Origin: Elusimicrobiota bacterium
Lineage (GTDB): Bacteria; Elusimicrobiota; Elusimicrobia; Elusimicrobiales; UBA9959
Length of the DNA stretch: 33,895 nt
NCBI GenBank assembly: GCA_030651035.1
Contig: JAUSCK010000131.1
Location: forward strand, 1-33,895
Direction: 5' to 3'
The position numbers were made by a program, and so were the translations under genes. Of the stretch, positions 500-31,498 are shown piece by piece (within the stretch, counting starts at the first letter, position 1; the number at the start of each line of letters is the position of its first letter). Below the pieces are notes generated by a model, which had not been told where the DNA came from, made no database searches, and saw nothing but the letters and a program-made list of their open reading frames with translations.

Positions 500-515
500 T
501 ACTTTTAATTATTCA

Positions 516-4222: not shown

Positions 4223-4941
4223 TTTTTACTCACCAGGCCGCGGCGCCTGCGGCCGCGGGCTACCCTGAATTTTTCTACCTTCAGCTGTTCCTGCCCGCCT
4301 ATCCGCCCCGTGGCCAGCTTCAGCGGGATCACCCGTCCGGCGAAGGCCGGGCTCTCCAGCACCAGCGTCTGCAGATCGCTGCCGTCTACGGTGCGGCCGG
4401 CTTTCTTTTCAGCGGTGATATAAGCGAGGAATTCTCCGTCCATCTCCCGGCCGAGCCAGCGCCTGTCCACTTTTTTAAAATCAACGCCCGTAATGAGGGC
4501 GCGCACACCCAGCTTCAGGCAGAGCCGCACGGCGTAGACCAGGTCGAAGCCTATCACCGGGGCGGCCAGGCCGAACCCTGCCCTGGCTGCCGCCTTCCGC
4601 CAGGAGTCTATCTTCCCCCCGCAGCGGCAGCGCGCCACGCCCGAAACCAGCGTATCCGCCCCGCAGGCTTCGCGGGCCGCGCGCGCCATCAGGGCCACGT
4701 TCCGGGACAGGGCTTTTACCCTGAAGCCCGGCCCCGTCTTTATGACTACCGCCGGGACCCCGAGCAGCCGGGCGTGGGCCTCTACTATCCCCGGCTTCCG
4801 GGAGTCGTTGAAATATTCCTCGTGCCTGGCGCCGCCGTCGAAACTTACAAGGCAGGCGATCTCCGCTCCGGAGGAGGCAGCTTCCAGCAGGGCCAGGTGG
4901 GAATCCTTGCCGCCGCTGTAAATTACCGCGCACTTCTTCAT
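4219..4941 (-). CDS. PP-loop ATPase, Dph6/DUF71-like (ATP_bind_4)
   Basis: This protein of 240 residues starts CAVIYSGGKDSHLALLEA; SGGKDS (9-14) is the PP-loop that binds ATP and releases pyrophosphate. The later GVDFKKVDRRWLGREMDGEF segment is typical of the diphthine-ammonia ligase (Dph6) superfamily, which adenylates a carboxyl group and converts it to an amide. In classical members an EGGEFETLV-type motif follows; here the aligned stretch is VDGSDLQTLVLESP (185-198), with the acidic/GG part lost, so substrate or chemistry may differ. The ATG at 4941 was chosen over an upstream one at 5055 because it begins the conserved fold and overlaps the preceding stop by 4 bases. Placement inside a radical SAM operon suggests amide formation on a shared substrate; that is inference. 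Confidence 0.8.
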   Translation of the reverse strand: MKKCAVIYSGGKDSHLALLEAASSGAEIACLVSFDGGARHEEYFNDSRKPGIVEAHARLLGVPAVVIKTGPGFRVKALSRNVALMARAAREACGADTLVSGVARCRCGGKIDSWRKAAARAGFGLAAPVIGFDLVYAVRLCLKLGVRALITGVDFKKVDRRWLGREMDGEFLAYITAEKKAGRTVDGSDLQTLVLESPAFAGRVIPLKLATGRIGGQEQLKVEKFRVARGRRRRGLVSKK

Positions 4942-5855
4942 TTGCCTCCCGCTTTCTTTTTCGCGATACAGGGTTTGAATTCGTCCCAGCCGTAGAGCTC
5001 CGGGTACTCGCGCCAGGGGCCTTCGCAGACCTTGAACCATTTGCAGGGGCGGCATTCGGGGCGCTTGACCTTACCCTCGTCGCGGCGGTAATCCCCGTAG
5101 CTTTCGAGGTAGAGGTTCGCGTCGGAGACCGGGCCTTCCGGGATCACGCGCTCGGCCACGCAGGCCTCGTAGCCCTTCATCAGGCAGAACGGGATGGCCT
5201 CGGTGTAGCAGGGAACGCCTTTCTTCAGGCCCACGTCCAGCGCCTTCTTCAGGTACGGCATCACATCGGTCTTCTTAGGCGTAAGCCATTTGCGGTTTTC
5301 CCAGGCCGCGCCCACCAGGTGGACGAAAGCGAACTGGAACTGGTCCGCCTTCAGATAAACCAGCAGCTTCGCCAGCGCCGGCAGGTCCTTGTAATTGACG
5401 GAGGTGATGACGGAATTGGTCAGCACGAACATGCCCAGCTTCTTGCAATTCATTATCCCCTGCACCACTTCCTTGAAGCTCCCCTTGGCGTGGGTGAGCC
5501 CCTCGTGCATCCCGGGCGTGGAGCCGTGCAGGGAAGGCCCCATCTCGGTGACCCCGGCTTTTTTCAGCTCGGCGCAGTAATCGTAGTAGGCGAAGCGGCG
5601 GCCGTTGGTCTGCACCTGCACGCTTTCATAGCCCAGCGCCCGGGCGGCGCGCACGGCGGCCGGCAGATCGGGATGGATGGTGGGCTCGCCGCCGGTAAAG
5701 ACCACGGCGCTGACACCGGTTTTCCTGGCCCGCACCAGGTCCGCCTTTATTTCGGCCAGGCTTTTGCGCTTGGCGATGGAGCGCTTCGCTCCCTGGGCGC
5801 AGAAATCGCACATATTATTGCAGTTGAACCCGATCTTGATGTCTATCCGTTTCAT
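4938..5855 (-). CDS. Radical SAM protein with C-terminal Cys motif (HxsC-like group)
   Basis: This protein of 305 residues has C12-x3-C16-x2-C19 (CNNMCDFC), FTGGEPTIHPDL, a SLHGSTPGMHEGLTHAKGSF stretch and, near the end, IPFCLMKGYE followed by CRPCKWFKVCEGPW and a GWDEFKPC tail. The CX2CX5C group with the earlier PFC cysteine could hold an auxiliary cluster. The order of motifs is the same in the genes at 8335-9345 and 9342-10424. This version is closest to radical SAM proteins that are widespread in bacteria and archaea and mostly have no assigned substrate. It follows the SPASM-like gene 5862-7256 after a 6 base gap and overlaps the PP-loop gene by 4 bases. Confidence 0.87.
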   Translation of the reverse strand: MKRIDIKIGFNCNNMCDFCAQGAKRSIAKRKSLAEIKADLVRARKTGVSAVVFTGGEPTIHPDLPAAVRAARALGYESVQVQTNGRRFAYYDYCAELKKAGVTEMGPSLHGSTPGMHEGLTHAKGSFKEVVQGIMNCKKLGMFVLTNSVITSVNYKDLPALAKLLVYLKADQFQFAFVHLVGAAWENRKWLTPKKTDVMPYLKKALDVGLKKGVPCYTEAIPFCLMKGYEACVAERVIPEGPVSDANLYLESYGDYRRDEGKVKRPECRPCKWFKVCEGPWREYPELYGWDEFKPCIAKKKAGGK

Positions 5856-5861
5856 AAAGCG

Positions 5862-7256
5862 TCAGTCATACTTTTCCGCCCATTTTTCCAGCAGCTTCCT
5901 GTCGCCGGGCCGGCTCAGCTTATTGAAAATAATATCAAATACACCCATGAAAATGCGGCACCGCTGGCTGGTCATCATGTCGCCCCAGAAGCTGCCCTGC
6001 GCCGCGTAGTTGTAGACCGGGGAGACCCGGCAGTAGGCGCTATACGGGCAGCGCGCGCACCTGGGCTGGGACAGGCGCGGAAAACACGACAGCAGCAGCG
6101 CCCTGCCCAGAGGTGAGGAGACCATCCCGCCGAAAGAGCCGGTCACGGAGCCCAGCCTGAAGAATTCGTTCCCCCCGGCGGCCAGCAGCCTGGCCTCGTC
6201 CGAACCGTAAACGGAACCGTCCGGCCCGTAGGCCAGCCGGTAGAGCAGGTCCAGGTTCTGGTAGCGGGGGCGCTCGCCGCTCACGATGTGCTTGATGAAC
6301 ATCAGCGCGCCCTTCTCGTAAACTTCCACGCCGGAGCGGTTCAGCTTAAGCATGTAATCCAGCGCTTTTGAATAGAAAACCAGGAATTCCTCCGGGCTGA
6401 CGGCCAGGCCGTCCTTTCCGGCCGCCCGGCCTATCGGTTCCAGCGGCCCGAGCTGCACCCGCTTTATACCGCGCTTCAAAAATTCGTCCACGATCTTTTC
6501 CGGGTACGGCAGTGAGAACCTGGTGACCGTGCAGATGGCGTTCAGCGGCTCTATTCTACCTTTCGCCGCGAGTTTAGTCGCCAGGGCTATGCCCCGCACG
6601 GCGGCGGCATGGCTGGAACCGCCGGAGAACTTCCGGGCGCGGTCATGGAGGGACGCGGGGCCGTCCAGCGAGGTGCAGAGCGTCACGCCGCGGGAGGCCA
6701 GGTATTCAAGCTTCTCAGGGGTCAGGGCGGCCAGGTTGGAAACCATCGAGAAATGGACCTTGCGGCCCTCTTTGGCGGCGCGGCGGCCGGCTTCCTCCAC
6801 CAGGCATTTGACCACGCCGAAATTACGCAGCGGCTCCCCGCCCTGGAATTCTATGACCAGTTCCTTCGCGCCGGCCTTGAAAATAAAATCCAGCGTTCTT
6901 TTAGCCGTAGCCAGGGACATGTGGCGGCCGCCGGCCGAGGCCGAAGCCCCGCAATAGAGGCAGGCGTGGTCGCAGTCGCCCGTCACTGCCACTATATGCA
7001 CGTGCGGCCCGGTCCAATCCTTCAGCAGGGCGGCGGAATGCCCCGGCATAAGCGTCTCGAAATCCAGGCGGTCCCGAAAGAAACCGCGCGACAAGAGCGT
7101 CTCCGCGGTTGCGGCGGGCAGGGCGACCCCGGCGGCGAAGTCCGGCAGCTCCGCGGCCTTTATTTCGGCGCTCATGGAAAAATCGTTGGAGACCAGGCAC
7201 CGGCCGCCCCGGCGGGCGAAATTAAAATCCGAAGGCTTGTTCTTCCCGGGCGGCAT
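5862..7256 (-). CDS. HxsB-like radical SAM protein with degenerate SPASM domain
   Basis: This protein of 464 residues has radical SAM motif C95-x3-C99-x2-C102 (CDHACLYC), VIEFQGGEPLRN and SLDGPASLHD. It aligns end to end with the HxsB at 23448-24908, including the closing GDRKLLEKW. The SPASM cysteines are partly gone: the first pair, seen elsewhere as PCGAAIG and YTCDEGR, is here LLYRLAY and YGSDEAR (351-356). CX2CX5C (C400, C403, C409) remains, the next cysteine is S412 (CRVSPVYNY), and the last (C433) is kept. The core motif is intact, so it may still cleave SAM, but two normal auxiliary clusters are unlikely. It overlaps the upstream stop by one base (TGATG). Confidence 0.87.
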   Translation of the reverse strand: MPPGKNKPSDFNFARRGGRCLVSNDFSMSAEIKAAELPDFAAGVALPAATAETLLSRGFFRDRLDFETLMPGHSAALLKDWTGPHVHIVAVTGDCDHACLYCGASASAGGRHMSLATAKRTLDFIFKAGAKELVIEFQGGEPLRNFGVVKCLVEEAGRRAAKEGRKVHFSMVSNLAALTPEKLEYLASRGVTLCTSLDGPASLHDRARKFSGGSSHAAAVRGIALATKLAAKGRIEPLNAICTVTRFSLPYPEKIVDEFLKRGIKRVQLGPLEPIGRAAGKDGLAVSPEEFLVFYSKALDYMLKLNRSGVEVYEKGALMFIKHIVSGERPRYQNLDLLYRLAYGPDGSVYGSDEARLLAAGGNEFFRLGSVTGSFGGMVSSPLGRALLLSCFPRLSQPRCARCPYSAYCRVSPVYNYAAQGSFWGDMMTSQRCRIFMGVFDIIFNKLSRPGDRKLLEKWAEKYD

Positions 7257-8338
7257 CAGATATACCCCTTTTTAAAAAGCCCGATAAGGCGCTTCAGGTA
7301 AGCTTTCATGGCCGGCTCTGAGGCGGAGCGGGCGATCAATTCCCTCGCGGCTTCCAGGCAGACGGCCGTGCGCAGGGCGTGGGCCCGGCTGCCGTCCGCC
7401 ATACCCGGCAGGCGGTAATAGGCGCCGACGCAGGCGGCGCAGCTCCGGGAGCCGGCTACGGGCCTGCAATCCCGGAAGCGTTCTATTAAGCCATCCCGCG
7501 CGGTGCCGATGGCCGCGGCTTTCCGCTGGGCGCCGGTCCTCAGGAACGGGTAAGGATAGAAGGAAAGCGTCCCGTCGGGAAAAAGTTCCAGGTCCCTCAG
7601 GAACGGGCAGAAAGCATCTGAGTATTCCTTGTCGCGGAAGAACTCGAGCAGCGGCTCCAGCACCACCGGCTTGCCGGCCGCGGCGCGGGCCAGCGTGAAC
7701 CCGGCCATCTTCCTCATCCCCGCCTCGAAGGCGGCGTAATCCGCCAGCTTCCAGGGAAAGCCGTGCACACATTCTATCCCGATATTGGTGAAGCCCAGCT
7801 TTACCAGCCGCAAGAAATCCGTATAGGCCGCCCCGGCGCGGCGGGGATGCACGCACAGTATCACGTGCAGGTTCTCGCCCATGGTCGAGATGAAAAGCGG
7901 GATCCTGCCCGCCACCGCGGCGTGCGAGCCTTTGCCGGAAATAAATTTGCGCGACAGGTCGTGGCTGCGGCCGCTGCCGGAGAAGCTGACGGCGAACCTT
8001 ACGCCGCGCTCCGCCAGCCAGCCCAGCTGTTCGGGCCCGGCCAGCACGCCGTTGCTGGCCACGGAGACGGCCAGGCGCTTGCCCAGTTTTTTAACCCGGG
8101 CCCGGGCTGCGGTTATTATCTCTTTCACCAGCCCGAATTCCATCAGCGGCTCGCCGCCGTAGAGCTCCAGCGTCTTCATCATGCCCGGGGAAGCCAGGAA
8201 GGCGTAAACGGCGCGGAGTGCGTCCTTGAGCGGGATGGTTTCGGTCCTGCTCTTGTCTATAAAGCAATGCGTGCACCTCAGGCAGCAGCCCGACGTCACG
8301 GCTATCTTGAATTTCAGGACTTCCTTGTTGAACTTCAT
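7256..8338 (-). CDS. Radical SAM protein, shortened HxsB-like
   Basis: This protein of 360 residues has its cluster motif almost at the N-terminus: C18-x3-C22-x2-C25 (CCLRCTHC), then LELYGGEPLMEFG. The segment SHDLSRKFISGKGSHAAV parallels the HDRARKFSGGSSHAAAV segment of the neighbouring HxsB-like protein, so it belongs to the same group but lacks the roughly 80-residue N-terminal domain. The SPASM-like region is reduced: C244 is present, its usual partner after G-x4 is Y261, and C300-x2-C303 is followed by arginine where the next cysteine is expected. The gene overlaps both neighbours (4 bases upstream, 1 base downstream). The substrate is unknown. Confidence 0.85.
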   Translation of the reverse strand: MKFNKEVLKFKIAVTSGCCLRCTHCFIDKSRTETIPLKDALRAVYAFLASPGMMKTLELYGGEPLMEFGLVKEIITAARARVKKLGKRLAVSVASNGVLAGPEQLGWLAERGVRFAVSFSGSGRSHDLSRKFISGKGSHAAVAGRIPLFISTMGENLHVILCVHPRRAGAAYTDFLRLVKLGFTNIGIECVHGFPWKLADYAAFEAGMRKMAGFTLARAAAGKPVVLEPLLEFFRDKEYSDAFCPFLRDLELFPDGTLSFYPYPFLRTGAQRKAAAIGTARDGLIERFRDCRPVAGSRSCAACVGAYYRLPGMADGSRAHALRTAVCLEAARELIARSASEPAMKAYLKRLIGLFKKGYI

Positions 8339-9345
8339 TTCATCTTCTTTAAAATGATCTCCGCCCGCTTCAGCCTGTTATGCGACGGGAACAGCGGGAA
8401 GGGAACGGCCTCTTTCCTCACCGGCCTGAATTCATCCGGCCCGAAAATATCGGAATACCATTTCTCGAAGCCCATGCAGCGGGAGTCGTAAACGCAGTCC
8501 CGGCAGCTTTTGTTCTTCAGGCAGAGGCGCTCTTTAAGGCCGTGGATCCGCTCTTCTTTCCCGTCTATGTGGAAAAGCGGCTCGTCGTCCTGCGCGGCGG
8601 AGGGGCGCTCCCACTCGGCCATCAGGTGCGCCGCTTCGGGCAGGTTGCACGGGCAGAAATTCACCAGCACCGAATCCTCGATGACCGCGCCTGAGCTCCG
8701 GAGGTACTCCAGCGCCTCCCGCACGTAAGGGACGGCCTGGGTGACGCTGACCTTCAGCTCGGAGGCACGCTTGGCCATCATGCCGTTGTAATGCGGGAAG
8801 ATAACGTTGAAATCCTCGATGCCGAAACGCCCGCTGATAATTTTCAGGAGGCCGGCAAGGGTTTTGTAATTCGGTTTGGTCAGCGCGTGGTTGACGGAGA
8901 TCTCCGCGCCGAGGCGGGTGAGGTTCTCGAAGGCCTTCATGACTTTTTTGAAGGCCCCGGGCACGCCCACCAGCGCGTCATGCGTTTTAGCGTCGGGGCC
9001 GTGCACGGAGACGCGGAAAATATTGGCGCCGGCCTCCACCAGGGTTTTCGCGTAGGCGGGGTCCGCCAGCTTCAGGCCGTTGGTCATCACCTGCACGTAG
9101 GGGTAGCCCATGGACCGCGCGAGCCGGACTATCTTCGGCAGGTCGTCGCGCATGGTTATTTCGCCGCCTATCAGGTAGGCCACCCAGCATTTCTCGCGGC
9201 GGCCTTTATACAGGGCTTCGGCGGCTTTCCCGAAGGGCATCCGCTCGGCCACTTTGTTCAGCACGGACTCGGGGTGGTAGCAGAACTTGCATTTCGCGTT
9301 GCAGTCGTAGTTGAGTATGATTTCGCAGTTGCGCGGTTTTATCAT
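8335..9345 (-). CDS. Radical SAM protein with C-terminal CX2CX5C motif (HxsC-like group)
   Basis: This protein of 336 residues has C15-x3-C19-x2-C22 (CNAKCKFC), IGGEITMRDDL, SVHGPDAKTHDALVGVPGAF, then VNFCPCNLPE and CRDCVYDSRCMGFEKWY with a GPDEFRPV tail. It is a clear tandem paralog of the next gene upstream (9342-10424): both carry the VLVNF-x-PC-x-LP block, the CX2CX5C block and an EFRP ending at the same relative positions. The cysteines probably hold an auxiliary cluster; that is inferred from the pattern. Overlaps of 4 bases on both sides indicate coupled translation. Confidence 0.87.
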   Translation of the reverse strand: MIKPRNCEIILNYDCNAKCKFCYHPESVLNKVAERMPFGKAAEALYKGRREKCWVAYLIGGEITMRDDLPKIVRLARSMGYPYVQVMTNGLKLADPAYAKTLVEAGANIFRVSVHGPDAKTHDALVGVPGAFKKVMKAFENLTRLGAEISVNHALTKPNYKTLAGLLKIISGRFGIEDFNVIFPHYNGMMAKRASELKVSVTQAVPYVREALEYLRSSGAVIEDSVLVNFCPCNLPEAAHLMAEWERPSAAQDDEPLFHIDGKEERIHGLKERLCLKNKSCRDCVYDSRCMGFEKWYSDIFGPDEFRPVRKEAVPFPLFPSHNRLKRAEIILKKMK

Positions 9346-10424
9346 TTGTTCGCCTCGAAAAGGGTCTTTACGGCGAAGGAGCGCGGGACCTTGGCCAGCG
9401 GCCTGAACTCGGAGCCGCCGGCTATGGCGAGGTATTCGGCGTCGATGCCGCGGCAGCGGGAATCCAGCGCGCAGCCGGCGCAGCGCTTCGTCTTGGCGCT
9501 CTGCTCGTTTTTCATCTCGGCCATGTTGACTATGACGCCGTCGGCCGGCATCAGCGGGTCGCCGCCGGCCGTGTCGGACTCCCAGTCGGCCAGCAGGTTC
9601 ATATACCGGGGCAGCAGGCAGGGTGTAAAATTGACCAGCACGCGGTTCAGCGCGGGGATTCCGGAAGCCTCAAGGACCTTGAGGCCTTTTTTAATGAAGG
9701 GAAGGGTCCCGGATATTTTCACCTTCAGGAGCTTCTCGTTGCGGGCCATCACGCCGCGGAAATGGCCGTAGATGATGTTGTAATAGTTGATGCCGAGGCC
9801 GTTATAGGCGAAGTCGAGGAAAGCGGGGAACTGGCGGTAATTGAGGGCGTTGATGACCTGGTTGGTCCCTACCTCGCGGCCCAGGGCGCGGATGTTGCCT
9901 ATTCCGCGCACGGCCTTGTCGAAGGCGCCGGGCACTCCGACCAGCCGGTCGTGCAGGGCGGCGGTGTGGCCGTGCAGGGAGATGTCGAACATGTTGAAGC
10001 CGGCGGCGGCCATTTCAGCGGCGTAGGCGGGGTCGGCGAGGCGCGCGCCGTTGGTGCAGAGTTTGACGCAGAGGTAGCCCGCCTTGCGGGCGAAGGAGGC
10101 TATTTTATCGATGTCGCCGCGGAGGGTCGGCTCGCCGCCTATTATGGCGGCTATCCAGCAGCCCTGTTTGCGGCCGAGGTAGAGGGCTTTGAGTATTTCT
10201 TCCAGCCTGGGTTCCGGGCCTTTGGCGAAGGAGCCGGGCTCGGCGTAGCAGAAGAGGCACTTATTGTTGCAAGCGGAATTGGCGGTGACTTCGCAGACCT
10301 TGGCCTTCAGGCTGACGGGCCAGCTGATATTGGCGAGGCGCGCGGAGAACGCGGCCCTGTCCAGGCCGGGCATTCTGCCCAGCGCGTACTTAAGATTTTT
10401 TTCCAAAAAAGGATTCATCAGCAT
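9342..10424 (-). CDS. Radical SAM protein, first gene of the seven-gene operon
   Basis: This protein of 360 residues has a 40-residue N-terminal extension before the core, then C52-x3-C56-x2-C59 (CNNKCLFC), IIGGEPTLRGDI, SLHGHTAALHDRLVGVPGAF, VNFTPCLLPRY and a C-terminal CAGCALDSRCRG with GGSEFRPL. It is a tandem paralog of 8335-9345. The ATG at 10424 is preceded only by a weak GCGGA; an in-frame ATG at 10418 is a second possible start. An inverted repeat (AGTCCGC at 10425-10431 with GCGGACT at 10455-10461) abuts the start codon and could influence initiation. As the promoter-proximal gene it probably sets expression of all seven. Confidence 0.86.
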   Translation of the reverse strand: MLMNPFLEKNLKYALGRMPGLDRAAFSARLANISWPVSLKAKVCEVTANSACNNKCLFCYAEPGSFAKGPEPRLEEILKALYLGRKQGCWIAAIIGGEPTLRGDIDKIASFARKAGYLCVKLCTNGARLADPAYAAEMAAAGFNMFDISLHGHTAALHDRLVGVPGAFDKAVRGIGNIRALGREVGTNQVINALNYRQFPAFLDFAYNGLGINYYNIIYGHFRGVMARNEKLLKVKISGTLPFIKKGLKVLEASGIPALNRVLVNFTPCLLPRYMNLLADWESDTAGGDPLMPADGVIVNMAEMKNEQSAKTKRCAGCALDSRCRGIDAEYLAIAGGSEFRPLAKVPRSFAVKTLFEANK

Positions 10425-18265: not shown

Positions 18266-20398
18266 TTAAGGAGCCCTTTCAGTTTCGGAGCAGATCACGT
18301 TCCATCTTCCCAGCTTTATAGCCTTTGTCATTTTCCAGCCGGAAGCCTTCAGGTCCCCGGCGAGCGCCGCGGCCGGGTAATCGTGCCAGCCGCCAGTCAG
18401 CTCCCAGTCCGGCCCGAACGCGGGATAGCCCAGCAGCCCGTCTATTATAAAGAGCCTGGCTCCTTCGCGCGCGGCGGCCCGCAGGGTTTTCAGCGCGCCG
18501 GCGCGCCCGCCCGGCTCCAGGGCGCTCAAAACCTGTGAAACGACTATTTCGCCGTAGACGCCTCTTTTTTTCAGGGCGGCGGCGATACCGGCGCCCAGGC
18601 CCGGCCTGTCCGCGTAGAGTCGCGCGGCGACGCCTGGCCGCGAGGGAACGAACCCGAATTTTTCCTCCACGAGCAGTTCCAGCCCGAAGCCCCGGGACGC
18701 CAGCTTGGCGGGATCGGCCGAATTGGCGCTGCAGAGCAGCAGCGAAGGGCCGGCGGCCGCGCCGCTGGCCATCAGGTCTATTATCCGCACTACACCGCCG
18801 CCGTCGACCCTGTCCCAGAGTATCCTGGCTTCGCAAAACCCGGCGAACCGGGCCGCGAAAGCCTTTCGCCCGCCCGTGCCGCGTTCGAGAGCGGCAAGCC
18901 CCCGGAGCATGCCGGCCCGGCCCTTTTCGAACATCTGCGGCTCCAGCATCGACCAGTCGCCGTCGTCGGCGTTGGCGTCCACCGCCTTCGCGGCCGCGGC
19001 CAGCAGCCTCTCGCCGCGCGCGAGGGCGTTCACCTTCCTGCACAAGTCTATCCGGGGGAAAACCCGGGCGCCGGCCGGCCCGCTCGCGATATGCCGGAAC
19101 AGGAAACCGAAATACTTGTCCGCGGAAACCAGGTTGGCGGCCAGCGACAGCTCCCTGGCGAGCCCGGCCGCGCACAGCATCCCGGCCCTATCGAGCGACG
19201 CCGTTTTCAGGACATAATACGGCTCGCGCGCCTGGTATTCAACGCCGGCCTTAGCCGCGGCCTTACCCAATGGGCTGCCCGGGTAGACCCGGAGCCGGTG
19301 AAAAAAAAGGCTCAGGTTCATGGACAGGCCCCAGTCCAGGTTGGCCATGCACTTCTCAAGCGTGTCGCCGGGAAGGCCTATTATAAAGCTTAAAACCAGC
19401 TTGGCCCTCGGGGCCCCGACGGATACGGCCGCGGCTTTTTCAGCCAGCTCCTTAAAATCCATCCGCCTGCCCGCGAGCCTGCACGTGTCCGGGAAGATGG
19501 TCTGCACGCCCGCGCCCAGGCTGAAAGCCCTGTTGTTGAGCAGGGGGATAGCGGCGGGGTCGAGGTTCAGCAAATTTATCTGGAACTCTATATTGATCTC
19601 CCTGCCCGCCGCCGCGCCGGCCAGCAGCTTCAGCAGGGGCCCCATGTTCCTGCTCTGGCACAGGTCGGAATCGGTCAGGAATAAAGTTTTAATTTCCGGG
19701 AAATCTCCGAAGATCCTTTTAACCTCGGCCGCGACCCTTTTAAAGGGGAAAACTTTGTATTTTTTCGGCAGCGTGCAGTAAAGGCAGGCGCTGCGGCAGC
19801 CGCGCGACATCTCGAACGGCGCTTTGGTATAGCCCCGCCAGCCGAACGTCCCGCCGAGGTAAGGCGAGGGCAGGGCGGAGAGTTTCCCCGAGGGGGGGCG
19901 CGGCGGGTTTACTGCCACCTTATCCCCGGAAAGATAAGCCAGCCCCTTTATAGCGGAGAAGCCGCCGGAGCGCAGGCAGGCTTTGAGGATCCCGGAAAAA
20001 GCGGCCTCGCCCTCGCCCGAAACCGCGAAATCGACGGAACCGCCGCTGAATATCTCCTCCGCTGAAATCGCGCCTACCAGCGGCCCGCCCAGGACCACGC
20101 GGGCGCCGCAGGCTCGTTTTATTTCCGCGGCCGCGCGCCTGACCGCCTCAAGCCCGCCGTAGACGGTGAACCCGGCCAGGTCCGGCCGCAGCTCCGACAC
20201 CTGCCGGGCCGCGTCGGCGGCGCTGCCGCCGGGCTCCAGGATGATTATCTCGGCGTTCCGCCGGAGGAACGGGTCCCGCAGCGCGCAGGCCTTGAGCAGG
20301 CCCGGCGCCAGCGGTATCATTTCGCCGGAGGGCAGGGCAGGGACCAGCACGACCCTGAATTTCCCGCGCGGTCCGGAGGGGAAAACTTTTTTGATCAT
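18266..20398 (-). CDS. Large cobalamin-type radical SAM protein with C-terminal domain
   Basis: This protein of 710 residues has a Rossmann domain at about 15-140 of B12-binding type (VVLGGPLVGAIS, FAVSGEGEAAF), then C201-x3-C205-x2-C208 (CRSACLYC), LFLTDSDLCQ and FIIGLPGDTLEKC. The C-terminal third (about 500-710) is extra. Its second half, EIVVSQVLSALEPGGRAGAL followed by RLFIIDGLLGYP, resembles the second half of a Rossmann SAM-methyltransferase, but the glycine-rich SAM loop is not evident, so this is a weak assignment. The DxHxxG cobalamin motif is not seen. It is the first gene of the minus-strand series 20398-14495 and would act with the sugar enzymes below it. The upstream gap carries family A repeat copy 3. 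Confidence 0.83.
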   Translation of the reverse strand: MIKKVFPSGPRGKFRVVLVPALPSGEMIPLAPGLLKACALRDPFLRRNAEIIILEPGGSAADAARQVSELRPDLAGFTVYGGLEAVRRAAAEIKRACGARVVLGGPLVGAISAEEIFSGGSVDFAVSGEGEAAFSGILKACLRSGGFSAIKGLAYLSGDKVAVNPPRPPSGKLSALPSPYLGGTFGWRGYTKAPFEMSRGCRSACLYCTLPKKYKVFPFKRVAAEVKRIFGDFPEIKTLFLTDSDLCQSRNMGPLLKLLAGAAAGREINIEFQINLLNLDPAAIPLLNNRAFSLGAGVQTIFPDTCRLAGRRMDFKELAEKAAAVSVGAPRAKLVLSFIIGLPGDTLEKCMANLDWGLSMNLSLFFHRLRVYPGSPLGKAAAKAGVEYQAREPYYVLKTASLDRAGMLCAAGLARELSLAANLVSADKYFGFLFRHIASGPAGARVFPRIDLCRKVNALARGERLLAAAAKAVDANADDGDWSMLEPQMFEKGRAGMLRGLAALERGTGGRKAFAARFAGFCEARILWDRVDGGGVVRIIDLMASGAAAGPSLLLCSANSADPAKLASRGFGLELLVEEKFGFVPSRPGVAARLYADRPGLGAGIAAALKKRGVYGEIVVSQVLSALEPGGRAGALKTLRAAAREGARLFIIDGLLGYPAFGPDWELTGGWHDYPAAALAGDLKASGWKMTKAIKLGRWNVICSETERAP

Positions 20399-20408
20399 AA
20401 ATTATTCA

Positions 20409-20471
20409 CATGGATATACAGGATAGACAGGATAAAGAAAAGTAAAATCCTGTATATCCTGTCCATCCATG
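20409..20471. repeat. Dispersed palindromic repeat, family A copy 3
   Basis: The arms 20409-20433 and 20447-20471 are 25-mers with an A-rich 13-base loop, and the same 9-base ACAGGAT substructure as the copies at 516 and 2708. It lies between the His-Xaa-Ser operon end (20513) and the start of the large cobalamin-type radical SAM gene (20398). Confidence 0.8.
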
Positions 20472-20512
20472 TTAAAACTCTTAGCTCCTGGTTATAAATT
20501 AAGCGGCGCAGG

Positions 20513-21652
20513 CTATCCGCTTTTTCCGACCGGCGGCAGGTCAGGATTATCAGAGCCCATTCCCGCCGAGCGCAGCGCGCTGACTATATCGGCGCTGCTC
20601 TTCAGCAGCGCCTTAAGGTCGCCGGGCTCGAGCAGGTTCTTGTAATAGATACAAAGCAGGCAGGCTAGAAAATCGCGCTGCCCGGAAGCCATTACCGCGC
20701 TGAAAGCCCGCTCCCTGGAGGCGCGCACTTTTTCCAGGTCAAGGCCGGAGCGCCAGTCGCCCACGGCGTAGGCGGCCCGCAGGGCGGGGTCCTGGGCCGC
20801 GCGGGAAGCTGAAATTATCGAGCAGGGGTAAAACACCCCGTCGGGGCCGATGGAGACCTCGCCCTGCGCGCAAAAATGTTCAAGCCAGGCCCGGCCTTTT
20901 CCCAGGCGCTTATAGCCGAACTTAGGGGTTTCCGCGAAGGCGCCGCGGCCGGCGCCCTTGAAATAGAGCGCGGCCTTGCGCAGTTCCCGCCTCAGCGCCG
21001 CGAGGTCGCGCGCGCTCCACGCCTCCTGCACCGCGAAGGAAAGGCCCAGGTCGCCGGCGCCGAGCGAAGCGAGGAACCTGACGTTCTCGGCCAGGCGCGG
21101 GGCCGTAGCCTTCGTGACCGTGGTGGAAATGCCGAGCGCTTTCCTGGCCGCCGCCGGCAGGGCCCGGATGTTCCTTATTACCCGCCGGAAACTGGGCCGG
21201 CCGGCGCTCGTGACCCTGTTCAGGTTGTGGCTGAAGGAAGCGCCGTCCAGGCTGATCTTAAGGTGTATGGCGCTGCGCCTGAAAAGCCCGGCGGTGGGCG
21301 CGTCCAGCAGCAGCCCGTTGCTGAAGCACTCTATCTCCACCCCGGGGCCGACGGCCTTCCTGAGCCAGGGCAGCAGGCCGGCCAGCAGTTTTTTATCCAG
21401 CAGCGGCTCGCCGCCGGAAATGCTTATCTTCTCCACCTTGCCGCCGCGCGCCGCGCGCAGGTAATGCAGCACGGCCAGCTTCATCCGGCGCAGGTCCAGT
21501 TTTTGCGCATGGGCGCGGTCGAGGTCGCCGGAATAGCAATAGCGGCAATGCATGTTGCACTGGTTGGAAACGCAGATATCAAGCTCCGCCGGCAGGCGGC
21601 CTGGGGCCGCCGGCGCGGAGCCGGCTGCGGATTTGCGGGCTGGGGATGACAT
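20513..21652 (-). CDS. Radical SAM protein at the end of the His-Xaa-Ser operon
   Basis: This protein of 379 residues has motif C32-x3-C36-x2-C39 (CNMHCRYC), ISGGEPLLDKKL and ISLDGASFSHNLNR. The C-terminal region has CAQGEVSIGPDGVFYPC, which fits the first half of a SPASM domain (C-x10-G-x4-C), and a later CLLC pair, so one auxiliary cluster is plausible. It takes the place that HxsC holds in typical Hxs operons but lacks the CNNxCxMC motif, so I regard it as a different maturase. A Pro/Ala-rich 20-residue N-terminus precedes the core. It follows the repeat peptide gene after 102 bases that contain a GC-rich hairpin, and probably acts on that peptide or on the HxsB product. Confidence 0.82.
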   Translation of the reverse strand: MSSPARKSAAGSAPAAPGRLPAELDICVSNQCNMHCRYCYSGDLDRAHAQKLDLRRMKLAVLHYLRAARGGKVEKISISGGEPLLDKKLLAGLLPWLRKAVGPGVEIECFSNGLLLDAPTAGLFRRSAIHLKISLDGASFSHNLNRVTSAGRPSFRRVIRNIRALPAAARKALGISTTVTKATAPRLAENVRFLASLGAGDLGLSFAVQEAWSARDLAALRRELRKAALYFKGAGRGAFAETPKFGYKRLGKGRAWLEHFCAQGEVSIGPDGVFYPCSIISASRAAQDPALRAAYAVGDWRSGLDLEKVRASRERAFSAVMASGQRDFLACLLCIYYKNLLEPGDLKALLKSSADIVSALRSAGMGSDNPDLPPVGKSG

Positions 21653-21696
21653 CTTTAGGCGCTGCCGTGCGGGGAAGCGTGGCTTGTTTCCTCGGG

Positions 21697-21721
21697 CGCG
21701 CCCCCCGGGAACGGGGGCGCG
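21697..21721 (-). promoter_or_regulatory. GC-rich hairpin between repeat peptide and radical SAM gene
   Basis: CGCGCCCCC (21697-21705) pairs perfectly with GGGGGCGCG (21713-21721) around a 7-base loop, a 9-bp all-GC stem. No T-run follows on the minus strand, so it is not a classical intrinsic terminator. It could stop exonuclease decay or attenuate transcription so that more peptide than enzyme is made. Confidence 0.55.
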
Positions 21722-21754
21722 GCGATCAAGCTTGAACGGACTTCCTGCTCAGCG

Positions 21755-22066
21755 CTAGCACCACCCGCCCCTTGCGTGCGAGCCGTGCGAGGAGTGGCTG
21801 GAATGCGAGCCGTGGCTGCCGTGGGAAGAATGCGAGCCGTGCGACCCGTGAGAGCCGTGAGAGCCGTGGCTCTGGTGGCTTGTGTGAGCCGTTTGAGAGA
21901 AGAAGTTCTGGTGTATCGTCTGCGCGCTGGCCTGGTCCACCATGACAGCGCCCAGAAGACCAAGGGCCAGCCCCGTCTTCACTATGTCCGCGTCCAGCAT
22001 CTTTCCCTCTTCGCTGTTGAGGAAGAGCTTGATATTTTTACCGACGTTTTGTTTTTTCTTTTTCAT
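21755..22066 (-). CDS. His-Xaa-Ser repeat precursor peptide (HxsA-type)
   Basis: This peptide of 103 residues has a basic N-terminus (MKKKKQNVGKN), a hydrophobic stretch about 31-45 ending in ASA (46-48), a possible signal peptidase site, then from residue 61 twelve uninterrupted H-x-S triplets (x is T, Q, G or S) to residue 96, and the tail HARGGWC. HxsA-type peptides are the presumed substrates of the radical SAM maturases HxsB and HxsC, although the chemistry of modification is not known to me. AGGAG lies 6 bases before the ATG at 22066, a strong ribosome site that fits a product needed in quantity. The terminal Cys is not something I recall for the family. The gene lies 12 bases after the Cys-rich protein gene. 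Confidence 0.88.
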   Translation of the reverse strand: MKKKKQNVGKNIKLFLNSEEGKMLDADIVKTGLALGLLGAVMVDQASAQTIHQNFFSQTAHTSHQSHGSHGSHGSHGSHSSHGSHGSHSSHSSHGSHARGGWC

Positions 22067-22078
22067 AACCTGCTCCTC

Positions 22079-23137
22079 TCACTCTTTGCCAAGGAGTTTC
22101 TTGGCTTGTTTGTTGATTTCCGCTATTCTCTTCTGCTCTTCTTTTTTAGCCTCTTCCGCGAGCTTCTTCTGGCTGTCGCCGGACTGCTCATGGGCGGAGA
22201 GAGACTGGCAATAGATCCCGCCCAGCTTTTCGAGGATAACAGAACAGGAGGTCGGGGACTTTGTAAAGAACGCGGCGCACTCGCTCATGTATTTTTCCGG
22301 GCAGCCGGACAGGTTGTTATCCTTGAGGGCGCTGTAAAGGCTGACATTATCAAGGCAGTCGGCGTTGCTGCAGTCGTCCCTGTTGCTGGGGAAGGCCTGG
22401 CGGCATTTGGCCTTGTTGTTGCCGGCCTTGGGGTGATTGCAGACGAAGGCGAAGCCCTGGGCGGCCCCGGTGCAGAACTCGGGCGGCACTTTGGCGCCGG
22501 TCACGTTATCCCCCTCGAAATATCTATGGCAGGGCAGCTCGCTCTTGAACTTGCCGGCGGCGTAGGCATAGAACAGCACCTTGACCGAGGGGTCCACGCA
22601 CTGGTAGTTGGGGGTAGTGAAATATTTATCCAGCTTATGCTGCACGCCGGGCACGTAATTGCACATGTCGAGGTCCCCGTAAACCACGGCCTGGCAGGAA
22701 AAGAACTTCGCCAGCAGGCCGTAAACGGCGTCGTTCTCCGGCTTGGTAAAAGCTTCCGGGCTGTACGCGGAATAGCCCCAGACTTTACCGTGGGAGGCCA
22801 GGATATCGTTGAGGGATTTGCCGGCGCAGAGCGTCTGCTTCGCGAACTCGGCCGGGATAGCGGCGATGGCTCCCCTTGCGGCCTTGGCGGCGGGCGGCGT
22901 AAAAATTGTCTTCGCCGAAGGTACGGCGAATTTAGCGGGCTCCGCCACTCCTTCGGGCGACGCGGCGTAAGCGGTGGACTCGGCGGGCAGGGACACCCCG
23001 CCGGGGATGTTCTCGGCGCTTTGGCCGGGCGTCAGGCCAATATCTATCGGCGCCGCGCTTTTCCGCTGCATATACTGCAGGAATAGTATCACCGCGAGGA
23101 TCCCCACGATAATTATGATAACTGGCTTTTTCATCAT
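22079..23137 (-). CDS. Cys-rich membrane-anchored protein of the Hxs operon
   Basis: This protein of 352 residues begins MMKKPVIIIIVGILAVILFL, a single membrane anchor or uncleaved signal. An Ala/Pro-rich linker follows, then about 230 residues with 14 cysteines (for example FSCQAVV, DMCNYV, FVCNHP, DDCSNADC), suggesting disulfides outside the membrane, and a charged Lys/Glu-rich C-terminal helix (about 322-352). I do not recognise the family. The ATG at 23137 overlaps the HxsD stop by 4 bases; the neighbouring ATG at 23134 is better spaced from AAGGGG and may be the true start. It lies between HxsD and the repeat peptide, so a role in export, display or oxidation of the modified peptide is possible, but that is inference. 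Confidence 0.75.
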   Translation of the reverse strand: MMKKPVIIIIVGILAVILFLQYMQRKSAAPIDIGLTPGQSAENIPGGVSLPAESTAYAASPEGVAEPAKFAVPSAKTIFTPPAAKAARGAIAAIPAEFAKQTLCAGKSLNDILASHGKVWGYSAYSPEAFTKPENDAVYGLLAKFFSCQAVVYGDLDMCNYVPGVQHKLDKYFTTPNYQCVDPSVKVLFYAYAAGKFKSELPCHRYFEGDNVTGAKVPPEFCTGAAQGFAFVCNHPKAGNNKAKCRQAFPSNRDDCSNADCLDNVSLYSALKDNNLSGCPEKYMSECAAFFTKSPTSCSVILEKLGGIYCQSLSAHEQSGDSQKKLAEEAKKEEQKRIAEINKQAKKLLGKE

Positions 23138-23451
23138 TTCCCCTTGTTCTTCGCTTGTATTTTCTCGCCGCAGGCCGACAGCAGCGCCTTGGTCACGATA
23201 ATGCCGGCTATCCTGGAATTCTTTTTTGCCAGGTCTATCCTGCACTGCTGGTTCAAAGCTTCGTTGGCCAGTTCCCCGGCCAGGTTTTCCAGGTCAGCGG
23301 CCCCGTCCAGCTGGACGCGCGTGGCCTCCTTCCCGGGCAGCACCTTCGCGCCGCATCTCCCGGAGAAAACGTACGCCGCCAGCTCCACGGCCTCTCTTGA
23401 ATAGACCGCGGTCTCAAAAACCAGCTCTTTGCCGCTTTTAACGTCCTTCAT
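23134..23451 (-). CDS. hxsD: HxsD, His-Xaa-Ser system accessory protein
   Basis: This protein of 105 residues has ETAVYSREAVELAAYVFSGR, a middle strand set and GELANEALNQQCRIDLAKK followed by IIVTKALLSA. This matches the HxsD pattern I know: a small alpha/beta protein with VYS-x-EA-x-x-AAY and an L-x-NE block. HxsD has no known catalytic residues and may act as a carrier or recognition partner of the radical SAM maturases. The ATG at 23451 was chosen because it overlaps the HxsB stop by 4 bases; the ATG at 23466 is an alternative. A second, divergent HxsD-like gene lies upstream of HxsB. Confidence 0.82.
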   Translation of the reverse strand: MKDVKSGKELVFETAVYSREAVELAAYVFSGRCGAKVLPGKEATRVQLDGAADLENLAGELANEALNQQCRIDLAKKNSRIAGIIVTKALLSACGEKIQAKNKGK

Positions 23452-24908
23452 TGCTTCACCGTCCATTTCTCCAGGATTTTCCTATCCCCGGCGTTCCTGA
23501 GCTTCGAGAAGAGCACGCCGAAAACGCCCTTAAAAAGCCTGCACCTGTCGTTCGACCGCATGTTTCCCCAGAGCGACCCCTGGGCCTCGTAGTTGAATAC
23601 CGGGCAGACCCCGCAGTACGGCTTATACGCGCAGCGGGAGCAGTCGGGCTGCGCCTCGAGGTTGGAGGAGACCACGCAGGCCCTGGCGGCCGGGCTTGAA
23701 AGCGCCTGCTTGAGGGTGCTTTCGAAAACGCTGCCGATGCGGAAAATATCGTCGCCTTCCCACCCGACCATACGGCCCTCGTCGCAGGTGTAAAGGTCGC
23801 CGTTGTAGTTGTAGGCTATCTGGCCGATGGCCGCGCCGCAGGGGCAGCGCGCGTCCAGGTAGCCGGGCTCGCGGAAGTTAAGGATCTTTTCCAGCATCAT
23901 GGCCGCCATCTTCTCGCGTATGACGACCCCGCGGCGGTTCAGTTCGAGTATATAGTCAAGGCACTTCCCGTAAAAAGCGGTGAACTCAACCGAGGTGTAG
24001 CCTATTTTTTCCCAGAGGCCCCTGGCGTAGCCTATGGGCGCGAGCGGCCTGACAAAGATGTCCTCGAGGCCGAGGCCCGTGTATTCGTCTATGATCTCCT
24101 TGTGCCTGGAAAGGGAATAGCGCGAAACGGTCAGCAGGGCGCTCGATTTGAAAATTCGGTATTCGGGGACCTGGTCCCCGTGTTTCTTCTGGAAATATTT
24201 CAGCCACTTCACCGCGCCCGCGTGGGAATTGCCGGCGGCGTAGATGCGGTTCCTGTTGTGCAGGTCCGCGGGCCCGTCGAGGGAAGTGCAGATGGAGACT
24301 TCGTTCTCAAGGAGGAACCGCGCCTTCTCCTCCGTCATCAGCGTGAAATTGGAAACCAGGGCCAGCTTCAGTTCTTTTTTTGAAGCCGCCGCTTTTTTGC
24401 GCGCGTGCTTCACCGCGGCCGTGAGCACCCCCCAGTTAAGCAGGGGCTCTCCGCCCTGGAACTCTATGGTAATGACCGGGCTGGGAGAGCTGAAAGCGAA
24501 ATCCACGCTCTTCAGCGCGGTCTTAAGGCTCATATCGGTCTTTTTGGCGCCTTCGCCCGCGGCGCTGGACTGGCAGTAAAGGCATTTATGGTTGCACCGG
24601 AGGGTGAGGACCAGGATGTGAAGCCCCGGGCCGTAGCTAAGGTGCGCGTTGCGGGTCCGCCACTTCGCGGCGAGCCCCTCCAGGTCCATGCGCCCGCGCA
24701 CGAACCCCCCGGCGGAAAGCTCCGCGAAAAGCGGGTCGCCCTCCGCGACCTTGCCGCTGATCACGCGCCCGAAGTTTTTTTCGCTGACCCAGGCGTGGCA
24801 GCCGGCCTCGTTGGTCAGCAGCCTGCCGCCGTCCATCTTTTCCCAGAGCGCCTGCGGCGCCGGAGAGGAAAGCTTCTTTTTATTTCCTGCGGGTTTTTTT
24901 ACCAGCAT
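23448..24908 (-). CDS. hxsB: HxsB, His-Xaa-Ser system radical SAM/SPASM maturase
   Basis: This protein of 486 residues has an N-terminal domain (about 1-95), the radical SAM core with C105-x3-C109-x2-C112 (CNHKCLYC) and EFQGGEPLLNW, SLDGPADLHN, then a complete SPASM domain: C357-x12-G-x4-C375, C423-x2-C426-x5-C432-x2-C435 and C456. HxsB with HxsC is predicted to modify the H-x-S repeats of HxsA. The match to HxsB rests on this architecture and on the adjoining HxsD and repeat peptide genes. It overlaps the upstream HxsD-like gene by 29 bases and HxsD by 4, showing tight coupling. Two closely related paralogs occur in region I (2783-4222 and 5862-7256). Confidence 0.9.
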   Translation of the reverse strand: MLVKKPAGNKKKLSSPAPQALWEKMDGGRLLTNEAGCHAWVSEKNFGRVISGKVAEGDPLFAELSAGGFVRGRMDLEGLAAKWRTRNAHLSYGPGLHILVLTLRCNHKCLYCQSSAAGEGAKKTDMSLKTALKSVDFAFSSPSPVITIEFQGGEPLLNWGVLTAAVKHARKKAAASKKELKLALVSNFTLMTEEKARFLLENEVSICTSLDGPADLHNRNRIYAAGNSHAGAVKWLKYFQKKHGDQVPEYRIFKSSALLTVSRYSLSRHKEIIDEYTGLGLEDIFVRPLAPIGYARGLWEKIGYTSVEFTAFYGKCLDYILELNRRGVVIREKMAAMMLEKILNFREPGYLDARCPCGAAIGQIAYNYNGDLYTCDEGRMVGWEGDDIFRIGSVFESTLKQALSSPAARACVVSSNLEAQPDCSRCAYKPYCGVCPVFNYEAQGSLWGNMRSNDRCRLFKGVFGVLFSKLRNAGDRKILEKWTVKQ

Positions 24909-25356
24909 ACTTGTCTTCCCAGGTTTTCGTTATGCCTAAAGGGTCTCTCTGCCGGCCGCTCCGCGCGTCCTTCTTTATCTCGCTCTCCACCTGCGCTATA
25001 AGGTCTTCGAGCTCTTTTTCCTGTTCTGCGGTAAGGCAGGAGTCCGAGGCGGGCTCCGGCTTCTTCCCGGGGGCGAGCGCCTTCATCACCAGGAATTCGC
25101 GCAGTTCTCTGTTATTGTCGGTGACGGCCTCCCGCAGCTTCTCGTCGGCCAGCTCGGCCCGGAAAGCGGCGGCGATGGCTTTGCCGGTCGCGGCCCCGGC
25201 GGGGGTAAAATCCGCCACGGCCGCGCCGGGCCCGTCCAGCCTTATGAAAACATGGGCCGCGCCGCTCGAGGCGTACGCGGCGTAGCGTATAGTGTCAAGG
25301 TTATAGTCCTTGAGGCTGACTGACACTGAAACCGTTTTGTTTTTTTGGCTTTTCAA
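24880..25356 (-). CDS. Divergent HxsD-like protein with helical C-terminal extension
   Basis: This protein of 158 residues has VSVSLKDYNLDTIRYAAYAS, which mirrors the YS-x-EA-x-x-AAY block of HxsD, and LREAVTDNNRELREFLVMKA, which mirrors its C-terminal half, so the first 100 residues look like a second HxsD. The remaining 58 residues (LTAEQEKELEDLIAQVESEI and a basic tail) are predicted helical and absent from the other copy. The start is TTG at 25356, supported by GGAGG (25362-25366) five bases upstream. Two HxsD-type proteins flanking HxsB might form a heteromer or serve different maturases; that is inference. Confidence 0.72.
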   Translation of the reverse strand: MKSQKNKTVSVSVSLKDYNLDTIRYAAYASSGAAHVFIRLDGPGAAVADFTPAGAATGKAIAAAFRAELADEKLREAVTDNNRELREFLVMKALAPGKKPEPASDSCLTAEQEKELEDLIAQVESEIKKDARSGRQRDPLGITKTWEDKYAGKKTRRK

Positions 25357-25395
25357 AATCGCCTCCGATACCCGGACAGGCTTCCGTTGGACAGC

Positions 25396-26199
25396 CTAGT
25401 TAGCATTGGGGACGATCCTGCAACAAAGCATGGTCCCGGTGCAATTCTGCGCCATGTGGGGGACCCAACTGCTTGCCAGCATCATGTTTACGCTGCCCTG
25501 CTTAAGAACCATACCGCCGGTCTGGCACTCGTTGCCGTATACGGCAGTGACCACCGTTCCGCCGGTGCACGTTGAGGTCCCGCTGCCGAACCCCTGCGTG
25601 TGGCAAAGGCCGTAAAGGCTGCCGGTGGCGGCGGTATTTTGGGACCCGATCCTTATATCGCCGGTGACATGCAGCCGACGGGTGGGAGTCCTTTCATTTA
25701 TGCCGACATTTCCGGTAGGTCCGTCGAAAGTCATAGCCGCTATATCGCCGCCAGGATTATTTCTCCATATCTCAAGATCGCCATCCTTGCCTGCCTCCTG
25801 ACCATCTTTATGCAAAACCACCCATCTGCTATTTTGCACGTTCATGTTCGAGCCATAAAGATAGAGGCTTGAATAGGCTCTATTAACGTCCCCTCCGGAG
25901 CCGCTCACGACAAGACCTCCCATTCCAGCGTTATTGCGGATAGCAACCCCAGGATAGCCGCCGGCAAAAGGACCCGGTGTCCCTACTAACACCTGCCCGC
26001 TATTCCTGGCCAGCAAGGTCTGGCCGGTGGTCAGGAGGTTGACATAGCCCCCGTAAGGCGCCGGGTAGTAGGTAGTAAGGGTCAGTGTTTCCGAGCCTAT
26101 GAAGCCCGGATGCCAGGCGATAAAGAAAACCGCCAGCGCGTAGAGCGCCTGCCTGCGGCTGAAGTTGAATCTGATCACTATTTCCCTGGTAGTTTCCAT
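25396..26199 (-). CDS. Exported tail-fibre-like surface protein, first gene of the Hxs operon
   Basis: This protein of 267 residues has a basic N-terminus followed by a hydrophobic segment (about 17-34, RQALYALAVFFIAW) acting as signal or anchor, then ETLTLTTYYPAPYGGY, a segment I recall from Elusimicrobiota-type surface proteins. GNVGINERTPTRRLHVTGDI is a motif common in tail-fibre and trimeric surface proteins (usual form VGIGTTTPTxxLHV). The C-terminal 75 residues hold six cysteines including a CC pair. The ATG at 26199 has GGAGG four bases upstream; a longer frame to 26280 lacks such support. It ends 40 bases before the HxsD-like gene. Whether it is a partner, carrier or second substrate of the Hxs enzymes is unknown. 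Confidence 0.75.
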   Translation of the reverse strand: METTREIVIRFNFSRRQALYALAVFFIAWHPGFIGSETLTLTTYYPAPYGGYVNLLTTGQTLLARNSGQVLVGTPGPFAGGYPGVAIRNNAGMGGLVVSGSGGDVNRAYSSLYLYGSNMNVQNSRWVVLHKDGQEAGKDGDLEIWRNNPGGDIAAMTFDGPTGNVGINERTPTRRLHVTGDIRIGSQNTAATGSLYGLCHTQGFGSGTSTCTGGTVVTAVYGNECQTGGMVLKQGSVNMMLASSWVPHMAQNCTGTMLCCRIVPNAN

Positions 26200-26734: not shown

Positions 26735-26739
26735 CAGGT

Positions 26740-31342: not shown

Positions 31343-31348
31343 CAGAAT

Positions 31349-31465: not shown

Positions 31466-31498
31466 TCTTAAGGAAGCCTGAATGCAGGATGTTAATTT

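Follow-up and report, generated by a model that had tools for sequence, protein, structure and literature searches.

The 33,895-nucleotide window analyzed here is the entire contig JAUSCK010000131.1 (C186) of an Elusimicrobiota genome (assembly GCA_030651035.1; 4.47 Mb, 320 contigs, 96.4% complete). It contains a His-Xaa-Ser (Hxs) operon on the minus strand at 26199-20513 and a second set of related genes, island I, on the same strand from 10424 to 616. We give a probability of roughly 60% to the explanation that the operon is the precursor-bearing half of one large HxsA4-type maturation locus, that island I is its other half, split off by an insertion, and that the two act by the mechanism proposed below. 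The narrower claim that the two islands serve one pathway, which the first-pass annotation had raised as a possibility, is very probable. The gene set shown to belong together comprises one precursor, two HxsD proteins, three HxsB maturases, an HxsC-like enzyme, several HxsC4-like enzymes and an A24-type protease.

Gene content of the operon and island I

The first-pass annotation described an hxsB flanked by two hxsD-like genes, no hxsC in the operon and a different radical S-adenosylmethionine (SAM) enzyme as its last gene. All of the listed genes were confirmed where it had placed them, and no HxsC was found among the genes at 20513-26199. The genes overlap at hxsD1/hxsB (29 nt), hxsB/hxsD2 (19 nt) and hxsD2/CysTM (4 nt), and short gaps follow TTYY (39 nt to hxsD1), CysTM (12 nt to hxsA4) and hxsA4 (102 nt to rSAM-E). 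The block therefore reads as one operon, with a single promoter-like site just upstream at 26299-26271. Its gene order recurs in dozens of genomes, and thus the arrangement is not due to chance.

The features are listed below with their scores in bits. The curated cut-offs were 370 for HxsB (TIGR03978), 267.9 for HxsC (TIGR03977), 50 for HxsD (TIGR03976), 55 for HxsA4 (NF038313), 500 for HxsC4 (NF038332) and 340 for PapB (NF047865); the Pfam cut-offs were 26.5 for A24 (PF01478), 23.2 for PF01902 and 23.4 for Arc_PepC.

25396..26199, minus: TTYYPAPYG envelope protein (TTYY), 267 amino acids (aa), first gene of the operon; N-terminal transmembrane segment or signal, invariant TTYYP-PYG, C-terminal Cys-Cys
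24880..25356, minus: HxsD1, 158 aa, TTG start; TIGR03976 34.5, below cut-off
23448..24908, minus: HxsB-II, radical SAM/SPASM maturase; TIGR03978 477.8, above cut-off
23134..23466, minus: HxsD2, 110 aa, NEALNQQCRIDL motif; TIGR03976 38.4 and HxsD-like NF038315 23.4, both below cut-off
22079..23137, minus: CysTM, Cys-rich membrane-anchored protein, 352 aa; N-terminal transmembrane helix, without family
21755..22066, minus: HxsA4 precursor, 103 aa; NF038313 68.2, above cut-off
20513..21652, minus: rSAM-E, PapB-like radical SAM enzyme after hxsA4, not HxsC; NF047865 99.3, below cut-off
18266..20398, minus: B12-binding radical SAM protein; KedN5-type methyltransferase model 65 (cut-off 700)
10766-18242: inserted block that separates the two islands (HemN-like radical SAM, beta-propeller membrane protein, glycosyltransferase, B12 radical SAM, sugar nucleotidyltransferase, flavin adenine dinucleotide oxidoreductase)
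9342..10424, minus: C4c, HxsC4-like, island I; NF038332 108, below cut-off
8335..9345, minus: C4b, HxsC4-like, island I; NF038332 95.6, below cut-off
7256..8338, minus: PapI, PapB-like radical SAM enzyme, island I; 84.5
5862..7256, minus: HxsB-I2, third paralogue, cysteines of auxiliary cluster I (AuxI) missing; TIGR03978 318.8, below cut-off
4938..5855, minus: C4a, HxsC4-like, island I; NF038332 143.6, the best score with this model, below cut-off
4219..5055, minus: Dph6-like ATP pyrophosphatase, island I; PF01902 51.4, above cut-off
2783..4222, minus: HxsB-I, second full paralogue; TIGR03978 447.2, above cut-off
1764..2651, minus: HxsC-like radical SAM enzyme, island I; TIGR03977 153.2, below cut-off
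616..1767, minus: A24-type (prepilin-peptidase-like) membrane aspartyl protease, 383 aa, island I; recognized by its active-site pattern and co-occurrence with HxsA
2..511, minus: partial, C4a-like radical SAM gene cut by the contig end; island I runs on beyond the window

Among the operon genes, HxsB and HxsA4 pass the cut-off of their own family, and both HxsD-type proteins and rSAM-E miss the cut-off of every family. The CxxxCxxC motif of rSAM-E is invariant in 20 homologues, and no SPASM match was found for it in Pfam. In close relatives the gene for the B12-binding protein comes after rSAM-E, and the Hxs locus of G107 contains a homologue (136 bits), so the protein is a possible further tailoring enzyme. 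The HxsC-like gene, correctly placed about 18 kb from the operon on the same contig, has the best TIGR03977 score in the genome (151.7-153.2 bits), and its C10/C14/C17 and C242/C267/C270/C276 are invariant in 26 of 26 sequences. A search for a further HxsC in the genome found no other gene above 95 bits with TIGR03977; matches on contigs C99 and C193 (74-92 bits) appear from their sequences to be other radical SAM proteins. Within island I, PapI adjoins hxsA4 in several relatives (L045, L046, L058 and L064), and three to four further radical SAM genes follow the protease gene in relatives. Homologues of the Dph6-like protein recur in the Hxs loci of L045, L046, L052, L058 and L064; such a protein is an odd companion to peptide chemistry by radical SAM enzymes.

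Synteny and co-occurrence of the two islands

Synteny was examined in 24 stretches from 22 relatives, with pieces up to 20 kb joined, and in a second sample of 46 loci from a named genome collection. Both islands form one contiguous, same-strand locus in G107, G111, G114, G119, G120 and G121, in the order TTYY, hxsD1, hxsB-II, hxsD2, CysTM, hxsA4, (PapB/C4), hxsB-I2, C4a, hxsB-I, hxsC, protease and more radical SAM genes. Loci of this type contain few foreign genes, and some genes are missing in some genomes. Single clusters are also present in L045, L046, L058 and L064. The closest relatives (G134, G152, G154 and G128) show the same split as the window, with two HxsBs ~23-29 kb apart, and carry its inserted block, some genes of which are missing in some of them; the splitting block in this lineage measures 7-10 kb. 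The contiguous locus in sister genera and the block between the halves in close relatives indicate that the islands are a split locus.

Co-occurrence was counted in the 59 genomes of the family and in 341 Elusimicrobiota genomes. In the family, HxsA4 was found in 54 genomes, HxsC in 51 and the protease in 50; HxsA4 and the HxsC-like enzyme occur together in 50, HxsA alone in four and HxsC alone in one. Across the larger set, 92 genomes have HxsB, 88 have HxsA4-type precursors and 87 have the A24 protease. HxsA and the protease are found together in 81 of these genomes, with HxsA only in seven, the protease only in six and neither in 247. At least one of the seven, G109, has a locus that stops at hxsC at the contig end. 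HxsA and the protease share a contig in 51 genomes and lie at most 30 kb apart in 46 of them.

It is improbable that the islands are separate neighbouring pathways, with island I acting on some other substrate, whose gene might lie past the contig end, and island II maturing HxsA4 alone. Each island does have its own HxsB, the window's island I holds no HxS-repeat precursor, and in G157, G139, G143 and G149 hxsC and the protease are found with one HxsB while HxsA4 is found with another HxsB 13-25 kb off. These observations are set against the locus that is unbroken and on one strand in at least six genomes, the joint presence or absence of the islands' genes, the single HxsA in the genome and the close spacing of the protease and HxsA.

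Precursor, maturases and candidate leader protease

The HxsA4 precursor consists of a leader, FLNSEEGK-MLDADIVK, a hydrophobic stretch, an AxA site, 12 consecutive HxS units and a C-terminal RGGWC. F15, L16 and E19 of the leader are invariant, and E20 and G21 are conserved in at least 90% of 16 diverse homologues. F-L-x-x-E-E-G-K is common to the precursor leaders. The G of the EEG motif is kept in nearly all precursors and is A in G111; prepilin peptidases accept G or A at that leader position. HxsA4 is a single-copy gene, and no second HxS precursor was found in the genome. RGGWC ends most precursors of the family, and GSY, FSF or GQW ends others. The terminal Cys might serve as a tether or as a cross-link site.

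A maximum-likelihood tree of 76 sequences places the window's three HxsBs in three separate clades, each found across many genera, with support of 100/99 for HxsB-I, 100/100 for HxsB-I2 and 93/94 for HxsB-II. The three HxsBs are thus three old clades. HxsB relatives also occur in 368 plasmid records, 315 of them from Klebsiella, and most are predicted to be conjugative. Cys261 is the fourth AuxI ligand in the enzyme anSME. The assignment of AuxI and the second auxiliary cluster (AuxII) in the HxsBs was transferred from the other anSME ligands, which are Cys255, 276 and 330 for AuxI and Cys317, 320, 326 and 348 for AuxII (PMC5715301). HxsB-II has the full set for two auxiliary clusters (C357/C375/C435 and C423/C426/C432/C456), and HxsB-I likewise has every SPASM cysteine. 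The equivalents of 357, 375 and 435 are missing in 17 of 17 HxsB-I2 homologues, which retain 423, 426, 432 and 456. Two or three of the three AuxI cysteines are also missing in three canonical HxsBs. The tree does not join the canonical HxsBs and HxsB-I2 as sisters, so AuxI was probably lost more than once. AuxI takes an electron during oxidative cross-linking by SuiB (PMC9012708); by analogy, the HxsB paralogues may perform different steps.

HxsD1 and HxsD2 are separate conserved paralogues, and both are clear HxsD relatives that score below cut-off. The C-terminal tail of HxsD1, DPxGIxxxWEEKYG, is recognizable in Elusimicrobiota, Schekmanbacteria and DPANN, and N68, E69, Q73, Q74, C75, R76 and D78 of HxsD2 are invariant in 28 of 28 sequences. 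The AlphaFold2 model of HxsD1 (predicted local distance difference test, pLDDT, 83) has Rpb11/AC19-type dimerization subunits as its top fold neighbours (E = 0.014, TM ~0.5). This modeled likeness suggests that HxsD1 and HxsD2 may form a heterodimer. A role for HxsD as a PqqD-type recognition element was also considered and rejected; the fold search returned Rpb11/KH-type folds, with no winged helix among the matches listed.

The active site of the protease reads D23...K28-I29-x-N31 and W92-P-A-G95-D96-x-K98. D23 and G95-D96, which provide the two catalytic Asp residues in an A24 context, are invariant in 18 of 18 Elusimicrobiota sequences. The K-I-x-N/AGD-x-K context is kept in three of four DPANN homologues, with SSDAK and a shifted first Asp in L063. 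The window protease itself scores 19.3 bits with PF01478, under the cut-off; Pfam A24 matches five of the 11 alignment members (best E = 2.9e-6) and Arc_PepC matches two, with the archaeal L059 homologue passing Arc_PepC at 24.8 bits. A PDB profile search with the protease alignment found nothing with an E-value of 1 or below. The genome encodes its ordinary prepilin peptidase separately, on contig C165 (66.5 bits), and therefore the A24-type protease is dedicated to the Hxs locus. It probably also processes HxsA4, and the FLxxEEGK leader would be the part that it cuts.

Outside Elusimicrobiota, the protease homologue lies directly upstream of hxsD-hxsB in the DPANN loci L059, L060, L061 and L063, and in Schekmanbacteria (L049) it is apparently on the same contig as the Hxs locus. 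In Falkowbacteria and one archaeon it is found elsewhere in the genome. The DPANN loci are minimal operons that combine an A24 protease and HxsB with two HxsD-type genes (a single one was seen in L063), and an HxS-repeat peptide was found in L059 and L060.

The METTREI... start of TTYY is kept in relatives, as is its position as the first gene ahead of hxsD1; T70, Y71-P73, C226, C238, C286 and C287 (numbered from the long open reading frame start at 26280) are invariant in 22 of 22 homologues, and no Pfam match was found. A protein with a C-terminal Cys-Cys also lies ahead of hxsD-hxsB in Schekmanbacteria L049. The first-pass annotation had proposed two new partners, a Cys-rich anchored protein and a tail-fibre-like protein. 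The former is present. The latter, TTYY, is without family support as a phage tail fibre, with a best PHROGs match of E = 0.06. In CysTM, C148, C159, C180 and C298 are invariant in 30 of 30 homologues and several further Cys are conserved in at least 90%. Its AlphaFold2 model (pLDDT 82) shows an all-helical ectodomain with a long C-terminal helix, and a fold search of the PDB gave no match. The ectodomain is predicted to be disulfide- or metal-capable.

Proposed mechanism, rival roles and known systems

In the proposed mechanism, the HxsD1/HxsD2 pair would present the FLxSEEGK leader of HxsA4 to HxsB in the cytoplasm, where HxsB-I and HxsB-II, with their full SPASM cysteines, would form oxidative cross-links within His-x-Ser units. 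The cross-link would most plausibly be of the triceptide kind and join the His ring to the Ser C-beta between residues i and i+2. The modification would be completed or varied by HxsB-I2, HxsC and the C4/PapB-like enzymes. The peptide would then reach the membrane by means of its hydrophobic segment, and there the A24 protease would remove the basic leader, with the cut probably falling after EEG. The His-rich repeat would end in the envelope beside the Cys-rich anchored protein and TTYY. The step order, chemistry, cleavage site and biological role are all inferred. Radical SAM cross-links of the i/i+2 type are documented as C2(His)-C-beta(Ala) and C4(Phe)-C-beta(Ser) (PMC11002830), and the HxS units fit this geometry, which includes Phe-x-Ser and His-x-Ala. 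We hold His-Ser cross-linking itself tentatively, at somewhat less than even odds.

Several observations weigh against this explanation. The HxsA4 leader departs from the canonical prepilin pattern; its hydrophobic residues begin no earlier than about +7 relative to the glycine, and the conserved Glu at +5 is missing. By score, HxsB is outside the triceptide enzyme families, and no characterized Hxs product was found in the literature searched, so the cross-link type rests on analogy. The fold match of HxsD noted above is weak. HxsA4 occurs without this HxsC in G102, G122, G144 and G156, so genomes with the operon and without the region I genes, which the first-pass annotation had named as the refuting case, do exist, and are rare; the G102 genome is 81% complete, and the HxsA copies of the other three are divergent. 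G130, G139, G143, G149, G157 and G159 are arranged differently, with other HxsB copies. Finally, the genomes share ancestry, so the co-occurrence counts are phylogenetically non-independent, and a stronger argument than the counts is the physical linkage seen in three families and in other phyla.

It is possible, and on balance unlikely, that the HxS peptide mainly binds metal (Cu/Ni/Zn) in the envelope, with the radical SAM enzymes tuning the His ligands and CysTM and TTYY as a metal or redox partner. HxsA4-type peptides have more than 12 His each and a Cys-rich anchored partner, and in noursin a cross-linked His creates copper binding (PMC10206099). However, no metal transporter or regulator was recognized as conserved in the locus, and metal binding is compatible with the split-locus explanation. 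A doubtful extension of that explanation is that HxsA4 is pilin-like, with its leader trimmed by the dedicated A24 protease in the manner of prepilin peptidases and its modified His-x-Ser tails displayed in the envelope, perhaps as a metal-binding or redox-active fibre with CysTM and TTYY. The leader resembles Flp/Tad pilins by eye (FLxSEEG, then hydrophobic), but it lacks E/Y at +5/+6 and has no Pfam match, and a Flp/Tad pilin is therefore only a speculative case. If the pilin-like reading were true, Elusimicrobiota and DPANN archaea would share a class of ribosomal peptide that matures by radical SAM chemistry together with a protease of the type IV pilin style.

A secreted antimicrobial ribosomally synthesized and post-translationally modified peptide (RiPP), or bacteriocin, is quite improbable, despite the RiPP-like layout and the barnase/barstar pair next door in many relatives, as no dedicated transporter (ATP-binding cassette/C39) or immunity gene was recognized in the conserved block. 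The precursor is also highly conserved and slow-varying across the phylum, unlike bacteriocin cores, and has been co-inherited for long. We consider the chance of a viperin-like defence system to be close to negligible: rSAM-E (55.8 bits) and HxsB (34 bits) do have matches to PADLOC viperin models, but these matches are weak and reflect the shared radical SAM core, and peptide-maturase models score higher. No nucleotide-kinase partner is present, and inheritance is vertical.

The locus resembles canonical Hxs systems (HxsA/A2, B, C, D; TIGR03976-TIGR03978), such as those of Aeromonas salmonicida plasmid 4 (L143) and Paraburkholderia pSYMBR3459 (L144), in its His-x-Ser repeat precursor, its HxsB over the curated cut-off and its HxsC- and HxsD-type partners. 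Because the HxsC and HxsD cut-offs were missed, it was filed as an HxsA4-type variant and not as canonical HxsABCD. Canonical loci have one HxsB, one HxsC and at most one annotated HxsD, whereas the window has three HxsBs and two HxsDs; no A24 protease, CysTM or TTYY is annotated within 6 kb of them, whereas the window locus has all of these. Canonical precursors open with an ordinary signal peptide without FLxSEEGK, and in HxsA4 that leader instead stands ahead of the hydrophobic stretch. The canonical HxsBs (n = 3) lack AuxI cysteines that HxsB-I and HxsB-II keep. The first-pass annotation had called the operon unusual, which is half right, since two HxsD-type genes are the normal state of this lineage and are present in DPANN loci too. 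It did not include the dedicated A24 protease, the division of HxsB into three paralogues or the interruption of a single locus by an insertion. Parts of the variant had already been noticed, as the HxsA4, HxsC4 and HxsD-like models in NCBIfam show. The precursor is HxsA4 by score and several radical SAM genes are HxsC4-like, but the window genes reach at most 143.6 bits against the 500 for HxsC4, and the models omit the protease, the three HxsBs, CysTM and TTYY.

Triceptide enzymes (MscB, HaaB, YhhB, ScaB; FxsB family TIGR04269) are likewise SPASM radical SAM maturases. They act on aromatic-x-residue motifs at i to i+2, including Phe-x-Ser and His-Ala-Ala (PMC11002830), whereas HxsB is a different enzyme family. 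The window protease shares the membrane setting and two-aspartate pattern of the A24 peptidases PilD, TadV and FlaK, and differs from them in its sub-threshold score, its 383-aa length, its own C-terminal region and its tie to Hxs rather than pilus loci. The literature searched on Hxs chemistry, Elusimicrobiota RiPPs and radical SAM enzymes with prepilin peptidases held nothing specific. Neither the link to the protease, nor the triplication of HxsB and its differing auxiliary clusters, nor the explanation as a split locus was found described there, and no leader peptidase or function was found reported there for any Hxs system, despite HxsB in many uncultured phyla. The locus supplies a candidate leader protease for Hxs, a defined minimal gene set in DPANN (protease, two HxsDs, HxsB and HxsA) and a natural comparison between HxsBs with and without the AuxI cluster. 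As a result, the action of HxsB becomes testable with few genes.

Directly upstream of the operon, the window encodes a secreted barnase-type ribonuclease (PF00545) and a barstar (PF01337) at 26345-27315 on the minus strand, and this pair has the same position in many relatives from several genera. A palindromic repeat of ~70 bp, ATTCACATGGAT...CAGGATA / TATCCTG...ATCCATGTT, is present in three copies (511-584, 2703-2775 and 20404-20473) in gaps of the Hxs islands, one of them just past rSAM-E, the last gene of the operon. A second interspersed repeat, CACCGCTGAGGCGCAGAGGTCGCAGAG with its inverse, is found at 10460-10582, where it borders island I, and at 31339-31470, after a BamA gene.

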